Source: a bacterium
Lineage (GTDB): Bacteria; Planctomycetota; Planctomycetia; Isosphaerales; Isosphaeraceae
Direction of reading: 5' to 3'
Length of the DNA: 64,000 nt
Assembly: GCA_016125085.1 (NCBI GenBank)
Contig: WGMM01000004.1
Location: forward strand, 151,074-215,073
Of the stretch, positions 1,947-8,733 are shown piece after piece (position 1 is the stretch's first letter; each line of letters opens with the position of its first letter). The notes beneath the pieces were generated by a model. That model did no database searches, was not told the DNA's origin, and worked only from the letters and a program-made list of their open reading frames with translations. Both the position numbers and the translations under genes were made by a program.

Positions 1947-3203
1947 ATGAGTTTACGCTACCTGACAGCCGGCGAGAGCCATGGCGCGGCACTGACGGCC
2001 ATCGTCGACGGCTTCCCTTCCGGTCTCCCGGTCGATTTCGAAGCGATCGACTTCGAGCTCAAACGCCGCCAGGGGGGCTATGGCCGCGGCAAGCGCCAGC
2101 AGCTCGAAACCGACAAGATCTCGATCGAATCGGGCATCTATCGGGGCGTCACCACAGGCGCGCCGATCACGCTCCGGCTGATCAATCGCGACGCCAAGCT
2201 CGAAAAACTGGCCGAGCCGGAAGCCCCGCGCGGCGGGCATATCGACCTGGCCGGTTCGCTGTCACACGAAACCGGCATTCGCCAGGTACTCGAACGGGCC
2301 AGTGCCCGCGAAACGGCCATTCGCGTCGCTGTCGGTGCTCTGGCCAGCCAGATGCTGGGGCATCTCGGCATCGGTGTCATCGGGTACGTCGTCGAACTCG
2401 GGGGCGTAAAGGCCGATGCGCTCGCGATCGACCAGTCCGTGCGTGACGCCAGCGCGGTCTACACGCTCAATCCGCAGGCCGATGCCGCGATCGTCGCCGC
2501 GATCGATGCCGCCCGTGCCGCGGGCGATACGCTCGGCGGAATTCTCGAAACGATCGTCACCGGCTGCCCGATCGGCCTGGGTTCGCACACGCAATATGAC
2601 CGCAAGCTCGATGCCCGCCTGGCCGCGGCTGTGATGAGCATTCAGGCGGTCAAGGCGGTCGAGTTCGGTCTGGGCTGCGAAGTCGCTCGCCGGCCGGGGT
2701 CGAAAGTCATGGATCCGATCCGGTACGACCCCGACCACGACCCGTCGGATCGCAGGTTCGGTTTCCGTCGGCCGTCGAACAATGCCGGCGGGATCGAAGG
2801 AGGCACATCGAACGGCGAACCCATCGTCGTCCGTGCGTACAAAAAGCCGATCAGCACCCTTGCCGCGCGCGGGCCGAGCATCAAAATGGCGACGAAGACC
2901 GAGTCGCCGGCAAGTTACGAGCGATCCGACGTCTGTGCCGTTCCGGCGGCTTCGGTGATTATGCAGAATGTCGTCGCCTTCGAAATCGCGGCGGCTGTCG
3001 TCGAAAAATATGGCTCAGGCAGCCTTGGGGCACTTCAGGAGGCCGTGGCCACGGCCCACGAACGTACGAAACGCCATCTGACGGAATGGCCCCCGGCTCG
3101 CAACCAGGCGGCGAATTCGGCCCAGGGCGATGCCGTTCAGCAGCCCTCCGGGCGCTCTTCGGCCGTGCTCTCCCAGGCGCGAAAAAGCCCTGAGTCGACC
3201 TGA
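1947..3203 (+). CDS. aroC: chorismate synthase
   Basis: ATG at 1947 inside ORF 1860..3203; 'MSLRYLTAGESHGAAL', 'RRQGGYGRGKRQQLETDKISIESGIYRGVTTGAPI', 'GFRRPSNNAGGIEGGTSNGEPIVVRAYKKPI'; roughly 40 aa C-terminal tail beyond the conserved core. Confidence 0.95.
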   Translation: MSLRYLTAGESHGAALTAIVDGFPSGLPVDFEAIDFELKRRQGGYGRGKRQQLETDKISIESGIYRGVTTGAPITLRLINRDAKLEKLAEPEAPRGGHIDLAGSLSHETGIRQVLERASARETAIRVAVGALASQMLGHLGIGVIGYVVELGGVKADALAIDQSVRDASAVYTLNPQADAAIVAAIDAARAAGDTLGGILETIVTGCPIGLGSHTQYDRKLDARLAAAVMSIQAVKAVEFGLGCEVARRPGSKVMDPIRYDPDHDPSDRRFGFRRPSNNAGGIEGGTSNGEPIVVRAYKKPISTLAARGPSIKMATKTESPASYERSDVCAVPAASVIMQNVVAFEIAAAVVEKYGSGSLGALQEAVATAHERTKRHLTEWPPARNQAANSAQGDAVQQPSGRSSAVLSQARKSPEST

Positions 3204-3283
3204 CCGAATCCGTGGTTCTTGCGTCGACGATCCGTATCTGCAAAAATGGCAGTCGCCTGATCAGGCCTGGCGATCGGCCCGGG

Positions 3284-3296
3284 TGTCAATTTGACA
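3284..3296. promoter_or_regulatory. palindrome TGTCAATTTGACA, possible activator/enhancer site upstream of dnaK
   Basis: Perfect 13-bp inverted repeat about 90 bp upstream of the -24/-12 element; related TGTCATTGAC at 3329-3338. Confidence 0.35.
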
Positions 3297-3383
3297 GCCG
3301 CAGGGTTCAAGGTTGGCCGGATCGATTTGTGTCATTGACGGCAAATCAAGTAACGGAAGCAATTTAGATGAATCTGTCCGTAA

Positions 3384-3400
3384 TTGGCACGCCTCTTGCA
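3384..3400 (+). promoter_or_regulatory. sigma-54 (RpoN) -24/-12 promoter upstream of dnaK
   Basis: TTGGCACGCCTCTTGCA; matches the established RpoN consensus (TTGGCACG-N4-TTGCW); GG (3386) to GC (3398) offset is the canonical 12 bp. Confidence 0.75.
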
Positions 3401-3542
3401 TAATTGCGTGGCATCCTCCGAATAGGCGATCGGGCGAAGGCCGGCGGGGCGAAGGGAACCGAAGCGGAATCAGCCGACGAAAGCTTGAGCGGAAAACCAG
3501 TCGTAGCGGAATAAGAACAGGGCGAAGAAAGGGGAGCGAGAC

Positions 3543-5462
3543 ATGGCAGAAGGCGAAAAGATCATCGGGATTGACCTGGGCACGACGAACTCGGTCGTAG
3601 CGGTGATGGAAGGTGGCGAGCCGAAGGTGATCGCCAATCAGGAGGGGGCGTATCTGACCCCGTCCGTGGTGGCGTTCACGAACAAGGGCGACACGCTGGT
3701 GGGCGAGCCGGCGAAGCGTCAGGCCGTGACGAACCCGACAGGCACGATCTATTCGATCAAGCGGTTCATGGGCCGGCGCGTCGGTGAAGTCTCCGACGAG
3801 CAGAAGATGGTGCCCTACAAGATCGTCGGCAGCACGAGCGATCCGGTGAAGGTCGAAGTCGGGGGCAAAGAGTACAGCCCGCCCGAAATCTCGGCCATCA
3901 TCCTGCGCAAGCTGAAGGAAGCGGCCGAAAGCTATCTTGGTCATAAGGTCAAGAAGGCCGTGATCACGGTGCCGGCCTACTTCAACGATGCCCAGCGGCA
4001 GGCGACGAAGGACGCCGGTCAGATCGCGGGCCTGGAAGTGGCCCGGATCATCAACGAGCCGACGGCCGCGGCGCTGGCCTATGGCCTGGACAAGAAGAAG
4101 AACGAAAAGATCGCCGTGTTCGACCTCGGCGGCGGCACGTTCGACATTTCGATCCTGGACGTGACGGACGGTCTGTTCGAAGTGCTTTCGACCAACGGCG
4201 ACACCCACCTGGGTGGCGACGACTGGGACGAAGCCCTGATCAACCACATCGCCGACGAGTTCAAGAAGAACGAAGGCATCGACCTGCGTAAGGATCAGAT
4301 GGCTCTGCAGCGGCTCAAGGAAGCCGCCGAAAAGGCCAAGAAGGAACTGTCGTTCCAGGCTCAGGCCGAAGTGAACCTGCCGTTCATCACGGCCGATGCC
4401 TCCGGGCCGAAGCACCTGATGATGACGATCACCCGCAGCCAGTTCGAACGTATGACCGACAAACTGGTCGAACGCTGCAAGATCCCGGTCCTGAAGGCTC
4501 TGGAAGACGCCAAGCTGAAGGCTGGTCAGGTCGACGAAGTGGTTCTGGTCGGCGGTTCCACCCGGATGCCGCGGATTCAGGAAATGGTCAAGGAAATCTT
4601 CGGCCGAGAGCCCCACAAGGGCGTCAATCCGGACGAAGTCGTGGCCGTCGGTGCCGCGATTCAGGGTGCCGTGCTCACGGGCGAAGTCAAAGACCTGCTG
4701 CTGCTGGACGTGACTCCGCTTTCGCTGGGTCTGGAAACCAAGGGCGGCGTCATGACCGTTCTGGTGCCGCGCAACACGACGATTCCGACCGAGAAGAAGG
4801 AAACCTTCACCACCGCCGAAGACAACCAGACGGCTGTGACGATCAAGGTCTATCAGGGCGAGCGGCCGATGGCGTCGGATAACCGGCTCCTCGGCGAGTT
4901 CAACCTGGAAGGCATTCCGCCAGCCCGGATGGGCGTGCCCCAGATCGAGGTGGCCTTCAACCTGGACGCCAACGGCATCCTTTCCGTCAAGGCCCGTGAC
5001 AAGGCCAGCGGTAAGGAGCAGACGATCCGGATCGAAGCCTCAGGCGGTCTTTCCAAGGACGAAATCGATAAGATGCAGCGTGACGCCGAAAGCCACGCCG
5101 CCGAAGACAAACGCAAGCGTGACCTGGCGGAAGCGCGCAACTCGGCCGAACAACGTGTCTACCAGGTCGAAAAGACCCTGGAAGACAACAAGGAAAAGCT
5201 GACCGAAGGCGACAAATCGGCGATCGCGTCGCTTGTCGAAAAGGTCAACAAGGCGAAGGAAGGCACCGACGTGGCCGCGATTCAATCCGCCACCGACGAG
5301 CTGATGAAAGCCGTTCAGGCCATGGCCGAGAAGCTTTATGCCGCAGGCCCCGAAGCTTCGGCCCCTGGTGGCGATGCCCCTACAGGTTCGCCCGAAGCCG
5401 GCGAATCGGCTGGCGGCAGCAAGCCGGACGACGTGATCGACGTCGAATTCGAGCAGAAGTGA
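3543..5462 (+). CDS. dnaK: molecular chaperone DnaK (Hsp70)
   Basis: 639 aa; '[19 protein letters not shown]', '[15 protein letters not shown]', '[22 protein letters not shown]', C-terminal '[11 protein letters not shown]'. Confidence 0.98.
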
Positions 5463-5506
5463 TTCGGCAGGTGACGCAAAACCGGACCGAATGACCCTGA
5501 GATCTC

Positions 5507-5540
5507 GGGGGGATGTGCCGAGCGGCCATCCCCCTTTTTT
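5507..5540 (+). terminator. Rho-independent terminator after dnaK
   Basis: GGGGGATG-tgccgagcgg-CCATCCCCC followed by TTTTTT. Confidence 0.85.
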
Positions 5541-5601
5541 CATAGGGTTTCCTGGCTCCGGGCCGGCGCTGAAACCTGATTCGTTCTTCAGGAATCGAGC
5601 G

Positions 5602-6027
5602 ATGACCGCCGCTGAGAATCGACCGAACCGTCCGCCTGGCTTCGAAACCCTGATGCGTCAGGCCTGGCCCGTGCTCTGGGAAGCGATTCGCCAGGGGCGA
5701 ACGGTCAGCTATACGGAACTGGCAGGTCGCGGCGGCCGGCCGCTGCATCACCGGCAACTGGCCCGGCAACTGCTGCGGGAAATGTCGCTTCGGTGCAAGC
5801 AGGCTGGTTTGCCCGATCTGGCGGCGCTTGTCGTGCGGCGCGATACCGGAAAGCCTGGCACCGGCTGGTGGGATCTCAACCCCGGGCGGGTTCGCGGGCC
5901 GGAAGACCCCGAGGAATCCTGGGAAGAGGCTCTGGTCATGTGCCTGAGCCACCCGTGGAAATCGACCGACGTCGACCTGCTCACCGGGGGCGGTAAAAAG
6001 TCGCCGAAAATCGGCCCGAATTCCTGA
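5602..6027 (+). CDS. small uncharacterised protein between dnaK and clpB, possible winged-helix-like domain
   Basis: ATG at 5602 within ORF 5491..6027; 'VLWEAIRQGRTVSYTELAGRGG...HHRQLARQLLREMSLRCKQAGLPDLAALVVRRDTGKPGTGWWDLN'; ORF sits between two chaperone genes. Confidence 0.65.
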   Translation: MTAAENRPNRPPGFETLMRQAWPVLWEAIRQGRTVSYTELAGRGGRPLHHRQLARQLLREMSLRCKQAGLPDLAALVVRRDTGKPGTGWWDLNPGRVRGPEDPEESWEEALVMCLSHPWKSTDVDLLTGGGKKSPKIGPNS

Positions 6028-6081
6028 ACGAAACGCCACTGCCGAACGTAAGAAAAGACAAGAAAAGGGGGAATCGACACA

Positions 6082-8733
6082 ATGGCATTCCGATTCGAAC
6101 AGCTTACGCACAAAGCTCAGGAAGCGGTCCAGCGCACGCAGGAAATGGCCCGCGAGAGCGGTAATCAGCGGTTGGAGCCTATGCACCTGCTGGCCGCCCT
6201 GCTGGAACCGGCTCCGTCCGTCACGCGCGCCATTCTGGAGAAGCTGGGGATAAACCCGGCCCAGATTCAGAAAGCCGCCAGTGAGGGCATCAAGGCCCTG
6301 CCGAAAGTCAGCGGCGGCGAGCAGACGCTCGGGCCCGACCTTTCGAAAGTCCTCGACACCGCTTCCGACGAAGCCAAGACGATGGGCGACGACTTCGTCT
6401 CGATCGAACACCTGCTGCTGGCTTTGACGAAAGTTCCCGGCAAGGCGCAGGGCGTCCTGAACGCGTTGGGCGTCAACGACAAGGCCATCATGGGTGCCCT
6501 GAAGGACGTGCGCGGCAGCCAGCGGGTGACGGACCAGAGCCCTGAGGAAAAGTATCAGGCCCTGGAAAAGTACGGCCGCGATCTCGTCGAGCTGGCCCGC
6601 AAGGGCAAGATCGACCCGGTGATCGGCCGCGACAGCGAAATTCGCCGCGTCGTTCAGGTGCTCTCGCGCCGGACGAAGAACAACCCGGTGCTCATCGGCG
6701 AACCGGGCGTCGGCAAGACGGCCATCGCCGAAGGGCTGGCCCAGCGGATCGTCTCGGGTGACGTGCCCGAATCGCTCAAGGGCCGCAAGCTGATCGCGCT
6801 GGACATGGGCGCGCTCGTCGCCGGGGCCAAATACCGGGGCGAATTCGAAGAACGCCTCAAGGCCGTTCTCAAGGAAGTGACCGACTCGGGCGGGCGGATC
6901 ATTCTGTTCATCGACGAACTGCACCTGGTCGTCGGCGCGGGCAAGAGCGACGGCGCCATGGACGCCGCCAACCTGCTCAAGCCGGCCCTGGCCCGGGGCG
7001 AGCTGCGGTGCGTCGGCGCGACGACGCTCGACGAATATCGCGAGCACATCGAAAAGGACCCGGCCCTGGAACGGCGGTTCCAGCCGGTGATGGTCGAGGA
7101 GCCGTCGATCGAAGACACGATCGCCATCCTGCGGGGCATCAAGGAAAAGTACGAAGTGCACCATAAGGTGACGATTCGCGATTCGGCACTGGTGGCCGCC
7201 GCGAAGCTTTCCACCCGCTACATCACCGACAGGCAGCTGCCCGACAAGGCCATCGACCTTGTCGACGAAGCCGCCAGCCGCCTGAGCATGGAGCTGCAAT
7301 CCGTTCCGACCGAGATCGACGTCATCCAGCGCCGGCTGCTGCAATTGCAGCTGGCCCAGCGGATGCTCCAGAACGAAACCGAGGAGCACGCCCAGGAACG
7401 GCTGGCCGAGATCGAGGAAGAGATCGCCAGGCTGGAAAAGGACCTGCAGGATCTGCGCACGCAGTGGGAGTTCGAAAAATCGGGCTTGGGCGACGTGCAG
7501 AAGGTGCGGGAAGAGTACGACAAGGTGAAGATCGAATACGCCCGGCAATATGAGGAGATCAACCTCATGATGCAGCGCGGCGAGCGGCCGGACGAAAACG
7601 TCTTCCGCAAGCTGGCCGAGATCGAAGCCCGCAAGAAGTCGCTGGAAACGCAGATCGCCAGCGCCGAAGCCGCCCAGCCCGCCGCCGAAAAGTCGGAAGC
7701 GAAGGGCAAGGACGGCCGTGTTCTGCTCAAGAAAGAGGTCGACTCGGAAGAGATCGCCGAAGTCGTGAGCCAGTGGACGGGCATCCCGGTTTCGAAGATG
7801 CTCACCACCGAGCGCGAAAAGCTGCTGCACCTGGAAAACCAGATCCACCTGCGTATGGTCAACCAGAACGACGCCGTTCGGGCCGTGGCCGATGCCGTGC
7901 GCCGCAGCCGTGCGGGCCTGCAGGATCCGAATCGGCCGATCGGTTCGTTCCTGTTCCTCGGGCCGACGGGCGTGGGCAAGACGGAGCTGGCGAAGGCGCT
8001 GGCCGAGTTCCTGTTCGACGACGAAAACGCCATGGTGCGCATCGACATGTCCGAATACGGCGAGCGGCATAACGTCAGCCGCCTGATCGGCGCGCCTCCC
8101 GGCTATGTCGGTTACGAGGAAGGGGGCCGGCTCACGGAAGCCGTCCGCCGCAGGCCTTATTCGGTCGTCCTGCTGGACGAAATGGAAAAGGCTCACCGCG
8201 ACGTCTTCAACGTGCTGCTGCAGGTGCTCGATGACGGCCGCCTGACAGACGGGCAGGGGCGCACGGTCGACTTCAAGAACGCCGTGATCATCATGACTTC
8301 GAATATCGGCAGCCAGGTCATCAGCGAGATGGCCGACAACGGCGACGAAGCCGCGATGCGCAACGCCATCGAGGAAATCCTGCGGAAGAACTTCCTGCCG
8401 GAATTCCTGAACCGGATCGACGAGAAAATCATCTTCCACCCGCTGGGCTACTTCGAGCTGCGGAAGATCGTGGACATCCAGCTCAAGCGGATGATGGCCC
8501 AGATGACCGAAGCCGGCCTGGTTCTGGAAATGACCGACAAGGCCAAGGAGCAGATCGCCGAAGAAGGCTACGACCCGGCCTATGGTGCCCGGCCGCTGAA
8601 GCGGGTGCTGCAGCAGCGCGTGGCCAATCCGCTGGCCTCGGCGATCCTGGCCGGCAAGTTCCCACCGGGGGCGACGATCCTGATCGACTGGAATGCGGAC
8701 GAAAGCCGGTTCGATTTCGAGCCGAAATCCTAA
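6082..8733 (+). CDS. clpB: ATP-dependent disaggregase ClpB (Hsp100)
   Basis: 883 aa; two AAA+ modules ('[20 protein letters not shown]', '[21 protein letters not shown]'), ClpB middle coiled-coil, Clp N domain. Confidence 0.98.

Follow-up and report, generated by a model that had tools for sequence, protein, structure and literature searches.

The window, by which we mean the whole 64-kb stretch of DNA analysed, carries dnaK between aroC and clpB. The genes and predicted regulatory features of the locus are as follows.

Up to 3203: aroC, the upstream neighbour of dnaK, scoring above its NCBIfam cut-off
3239..3251, unstranded: second, weaker putative enhancer TGCAAAAATGGCA, centred at about -166, 45 bp further upstream than the main one
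3284..3296, unstranded: main putative enhancer TGTCAATTTGACA, consensus C-TGYCA-N3-TGRCA-G, centre at about -121 from the predicted start
3384..3400, plus strand: sigma-54 -24/-12 element TTGGCACGCCTCTTGCA, exact consensus, predicted start at about 3411
3411..3542, plus strand: predicted dnaK 5' untranslated region, about 132 nt, deduced from the -12 position
3543..5462, plus strand: dnaK, 639 aa; NF001413 988 bits (cut-off 648), TIGR02350 950 bits (cut-off 823)
5602..6027, plus strand: small open reading frame between dnaK and clpB, matching no family, start codon uncertain
6082..8733, plus strand: clpB, 883 aa; TIGR03346 1288.7 bits (cut-off 1232.1)

The interval between the end of aroC (3203) and the dnaK ATG (3543) measured 339 nt, in agreement with the gap of about 340 bp given in the initial annotation of this DNA, and the 5' untranslated region of about 130 nt proposed there is close to our prediction. 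A scan from dnaK to clpB found nothing resembling a terminator or promoter on the plus strand in 5300-6200, so the small open reading frame possibly shares one transcript with dnaK and clpB, in which clpB would probably be the distal gene. The adjacency of dnaK and clpB was also found at two other loci (L276 and L277).

The initial annotation had placed a GG-N10-GC element at 3384-3400, and both its position and its spacing proved exact: GG at 3386-3387 is followed by ten bases and then by GC at 3398-3399. The 64-kb window holds a single match to TGGCAC-N5-TTGCW, where 0.02 would be expected from shuffled sequences. A relaxed -24/-12 search allowing two mismatches returned 20 sites in the window, which equals the chance expectation, and relaxed motif counting alone was discarded as useless as evidence. 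Conservation of the element upstream of related dnaK genes, a check that the annotation had named, was assessed at 56 main dnaK loci, comprising the window and other genomes of its class, and elements were called at a score of at least 20.5 of 24 on the sense strand within 300 bp of dnaK. The results showed a sense-strand element at 54 of the 56 loci and a reverse-strand element at none of them, with 1.4 expected from shuffled sequences. The genome encodes RpoN, including its DNA-binding domain, and nine strong enhancer-binding proteins (bEBPs), at least one of them with the Sigma54_activat domain and the GAFTGA loop.

Alignment of the dnaK upstream regions exposed a 13-bp palindrome, TGYCA-N3-TGRCA, mostly flanked by C and G and lying about 100 nt upstream of the -24/-12 element, which the initial annotation had overlooked. 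The main enhancer pattern matched once in the window (0.08 expected). An enhancer scoring 9 or more out of 10 was present at 50/56 dnaK loci, with about 0.75 expected from shuffled sequences, and 35/56 loci carried two or more such sites in the upstream interval. Enhancer-to-promoter distances clustered near 101, 112-113 and 122 nt and were helically phased at 10.5 bp (Rayleigh p ~1e-6, n = 154, the p value being indicative since the sequences are related and non-independent). This phasing fits DNA looping, because looping on one face of the DNA predicts it. Extra dnaK-like copies in five genomes (G011, G016, G020, G028 and G034) serve as an internal control for the association of promoter and enhancer: the promoter was found at 0/5 and the enhancer was missing in 4/5. 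The ingredients of a sigma-54-dependent promoter, namely a -24/-12 element, RpoN and bEBPs in the genome and a helically phased enhancer 80-200 bp upstream, were all found.

A weak inverted repeat, (C/T)AAGT-N15-ACTT(A/G), was observed 40-60 nt upstream of the -24 position, in the window (about 3300-3384) and in relatives. It occurred in 7 of 152 spacers against 0.9 expected, and ACTTAC occurred 22 times against 6. As a further conserved element of the spacer, TAAGT-N15-ACTTA has weak support; the repeat could conceivably mark a site for a bending protein or an extra regulator.

To follow the enhancer and promoter through other genomes, we defined a joint pattern, the enhancer with a sigma-54 element within 81-111 nt, and used the reversed pattern as control. 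Within the class, 112 of 199 genomes carried the joint pattern, and the control matched once in the whole set; across the phylum, 58 genomes out of 149 carried it, and the control matched three times. This genome contains two instances of the joint pattern and no more, one at dnaK and one ahead of an hsp20 gene (L070). Among 40 fetched loci, 36 of 41 promoters precede dnaK, groES/groEL, hsp20 or clpB, and htpG stands behind the joint pattern in two further genomes (L096 and L097). These findings indicate that the predicted enhancer/sigma-54 pair precedes dnaK, groES-groEL, hsp20, clpB and htpG throughout Planctomycetota. The canonical enhancer is missing from many genomes of one Pirellulaceae-like family (f3). 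In one genome, G184 (L072), an enhancer and a sigma-54 element lie before a gene for a 155-aa protein resembling a stand-alone receiver domain.

A blind scan of GTDB genomes returned at least 118 loci, tallied separately as 80 and 38 rows. Among 80 of the matches listed, 43 of 45 tallied Planctomycetota matches lie before chaperone genes; nine more chaperone matches come from KSB1, Verrucomicrobia, Puniceicoccales, Poribacteria, Gemmatimonadetes and two other bacteria, and 25 others, probably chance matches, lie away from chaperones. Among the remaining 38 rows listed, 25 are at chaperones. The pair stands directly before clpB in a Gemmatimonadetes MAG (L301), and before groES-groEL (L307 and L319) and hsp20 (L352) in Poribacteria MAGs. 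Since it is found in these two groups, the predicted system appears to extend beyond Planctomycetota. On contig CAMCFM010000025.1 (L290), dnaK is 90% identical to that of the window, and the label Candidatus Kuenenia stuttgartiensis may be wrong.

The best candidate for the activator, which we call A2, lies elsewhere in the genome.

G000:C33:104873-106219: A2, a response regulator with REC, Sigma54_activat and Fis HTH domains (REC-AAA+-Fis)

A2 has the features of an NtrC-type response-regulator bEBP: a REC domain whose aspartates, T and K are invariant, an AAA+ domain and a Fis-type HTH, whose recognition helix RTLYRKI is conserved. It was found through the phylum. The neighbouring kinase, a short and soluble histidine kinase, has 273 aa and consists of HisKA and HATPase_c domains only; a domain search detected no recognised sensor domain in it. 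The gene order is rpsO-pnp-kinase-A2 in this genome and in several other fetched genomes, and in the window's own class the pair is not adjacent to dnaK. Outside the class, kinase, A2 and dnaK are consecutive on one strand in six families (L258, L260, L274, L275, L282 and L283). The gaps between A2 and dnaK at these dnaK-linked loci hold enhancer-like palindromes; the full order of enhancer, -24/-12 element and dnaK is intact in L274 and L275 (the GTDB match L311 is on the same contig as L275), and the -12 GC is degenerate in L258, L282 and L283. In a phylogenetic tree, pnp-linked and dnaK-linked A2 proteins, including the A2 of this genome, formed one clade without intruders (support 0.995). 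Gene order is the strongest evidence for A2 as the presumptive activator.

Co-occurrence across genomes pointed the same way. The regulon pattern was commoner in genomes with a strong A2 (33/49 versus 25/100, p = 8e-7 by Fisher test over non-independent genomes, at the best of eight A2 thresholds, all with p < 0.003). The association is significant but loose, because A2 scores grade into those of paralogues: beyond the class, such scores are part of the basis for calling orthologues, and some pattern-carrying genomes have only weak A2 scores. In family f3 (L181 and L233), the A2 recognition helix reads RTLYRMI or RVI in place of RTLYRKI, and the protein has a second C-terminal HTH-like stretch. 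Another bEBP, near dnaK-clpB in G228 and G270 (the L236 family), was set aside; it looks PilSR-like because it lies on the opposite strand, with a kinase gene and a gene of type II/IV secretion-like character as neighbours.

With these components, we consider it quite probable that dnaK is transcribed from a sigma-54 promoter with distal enhancers, under the control of A2 and its neighbouring kinase, as part of a heat-shock regulon. The kinase encoded just upstream of A2 would autophosphorylate and then phosphorylate A2. A hexameric NtrC-type activator, most likely A2, would bind TGYCA-N3-TGRCA about 120 and 165 bp upstream of the start. Phosphorylated A2 would oligomerise on the enhancers, and a DNA loop would bring it to the sigma-54 polymerase at 3384-3400. 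There it would remodel the closed complex at the -24/-12 element, leading to transcription of dnaK and probably also of clpB. The predicted regulon would comprise dnaK, probably with clpB, and hsp20 in this genome, and also groES-groEL, clpB and htpG in relatives. The signal would be heat or misfolded protein, and we might guess that DnaK feeds back on the kinase. The suggestion of the initial annotation that the main Hsp70 is under sigma-54/bEBP control is supported at the level of sequence by the conserved element, the phased enhancer, the presence of RpoN and bEBPs, and a syntenic candidate bEBP.

Among the alternatives, the one that survives best, though we regard it as unlikely, is that something other than heat triggers the regulon, such as an envelope, metal or nutrient signal read in the manner of ZraSR, AtoSC or NtrBC, with the chaperones only as downstream effectors. 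The nearest NCBIfam models of the pair are indeed AtoS, ZraS, NtrC, AtoC and ZraR, and the lack of any recognised sensor domain in the kinase is compatible with such a signal. However, the pair scores below the equivalog cut-off of every one of these models, and the members of the regulon are the classic cytosolic heat-shock set. Moreover, heat induces dnaK, groEL, hsp20 and clpB in Rhodopirellula baltica (PMC2754498), which argues for heat as the signal.

A different activator is a less probable alternative, one to which we give little weight. The candidate, A1, is a class-specific bEBP that would act on the same promoter and enhancer in the manner of PspF, restrained by a partner protein, perhaps a chaperone.

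G000:C33:76359-77510 (L006 and L136): A1, a bEBP of about 350-400 aa with no receiver domain

A1 was the first activator candidate, being present as a single copy at 484 bits or more in 50/50 genomes of the class (Planctomycetia), where the next paralogue scores at most 387 bits, and its recognition helix GINRNTLHKK is conserved. We set it aside because, at that score, it is missing outside the class, where the enhancer and the regulon persist. In addition, no linkage of A1 to chaperone genes was seen, whereas six families have A2 next to dnaK. The sigma-54 loop of A1 varies, reading GSFTGA, GAFTNA or GAFTSA.

Bacterial heat-shock control is usually ascribed to sigma-32, HrcA/CIRCE, HspR or CtsR. 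Given how widespread HrcA/CIRCE and sigma-32 control is in other bacteria, one of these could be the main regulator here and the sigma-54 element a minor or relic promoter, yet the searches make this very improbable. No CIRCE was found in the 64-kb window with up to 3 mismatches, the best match upstream of dnaK reaching 11/18 positions, and exact CIRCE occurred at none of the 401 loci, a set that has dozens of dnaK and groESL promoters in it. The best match to the sigma-32 promoter CTTGAAA / CCCCATAT upstream of dnaK reached 10/15 positions, a value equalled by 58% of shuffles, and no sigma-70-type promoter was found in 3100-3700. A relic promoter would also not be kept throughout the phylum. 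For the HspR/HAIR site CTTGAGT-N7-ACTCAAG, the best match was 9/14 positions. The absence of CIRCE upstream of dnaK noted in the initial annotation therefore extends from the window to the 401 loci; of its proposal that sigma-54 acts instead of, or in addition to, HrcA or sigma-32, the 'instead of' is borne out at the promoter level only.

The last alternative, that the -24/-12 element fits a degenerate consensus by chance, as the 20 two-mismatch sites do, is refuted, because the exact element, with so low an expectation in the window, is conserved at the dnaK loci and linked to an enhancer.

Beyond control of dnaK by A2 and its kinase, a wider proposal, which we put forward tentatively and believe somewhat less than we doubt, is that Planctomycetota inherited from their ancestor a two-component, enhancer-dependent system dedicated to heat shock, which also exists in several further phyla. 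It would replace sigma-32/HrcA in their role, and its sensor-less kinase might read chaperone availability directly, for example via the DnaK encoded next to it. In R. baltica the chaperones are heat-induced, yet the sigma-factor genes, including rpoN, are not heat-regulated (PMC2754498). If control of dnaK by A2 is true, a phosphorelay to a sigma-54 enhancer would explain chaperone induction at a constant sigma-factor level. The reading singles out two genes, for the kinase and the activator, and one 13-bp site, and it prompts one to ask how protein damage could be detected by a kinase in which no sensor domain is recognised.

Studholme and Dixon reportedly carried out earlier in silico work on Pirellula in 2004. 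Part of the present picture is already known: sigma-54 promoters were predicted in 2025 at heat-shock COGs of Planctomycetia and Bacteroidota, and in the parts of that study available to us they are enriched at class level before the GroEL, GroES, IbpA, GrpE, DnaJ and DnaK genes in Planctomycetia (PLoS One 2025, PMC12316311). The same parts state that bEBP specificity was not available for every organism studied, and they give no enhancer motif, no assignment of a bEBP or kinase to these genes and no synteny, in contrast to the present analysis (PMC12316311). As far as the literature could be checked, three things are new: the enhancer itself, the assignment of a kinase/activator pair that is linked to dnaK in other families, and the occurrence beyond this phylum.

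Several known systems share features with the one proposed here. The hrcA-grpE-dnaK operon of Chlamydia trachomatis, also a PVC bacterium, likewise has sigma-54 at a heat-shock operon, with tandem sigma-66/sigma-54 promoters (PMC8762339), but its heat switch is HrcA/CIRCE, whereas CIRCE is lacking from the window and the 401 loci. ZraSR, AtoSC and NtrBC, the best NCBIfam models, have a common domain plan of a kinase and a REC-AAA+-Fis activator; they differ in their target genes, the kinase here has HisKA and HATPase_c domains only, and orthology is not indicated by the scores, which fall well short of the equivalog cut-offs (NtrC 428 of 558.6, AtoC 426 of 714 and ZraR 408 of 760). The nearest working analogue is the HsfBA phosphorelay of Myxococcus xanthus, likewise a two-component system whose NtrC-like activator directly regulates a heat-shock gene, lonD (PMC9109919). 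HsfB is a hybrid kinase with one Lon protease gene as its known heat target, whereas the system predicted here pairs a short, non-hybrid kinase with a general chaperone regulon.
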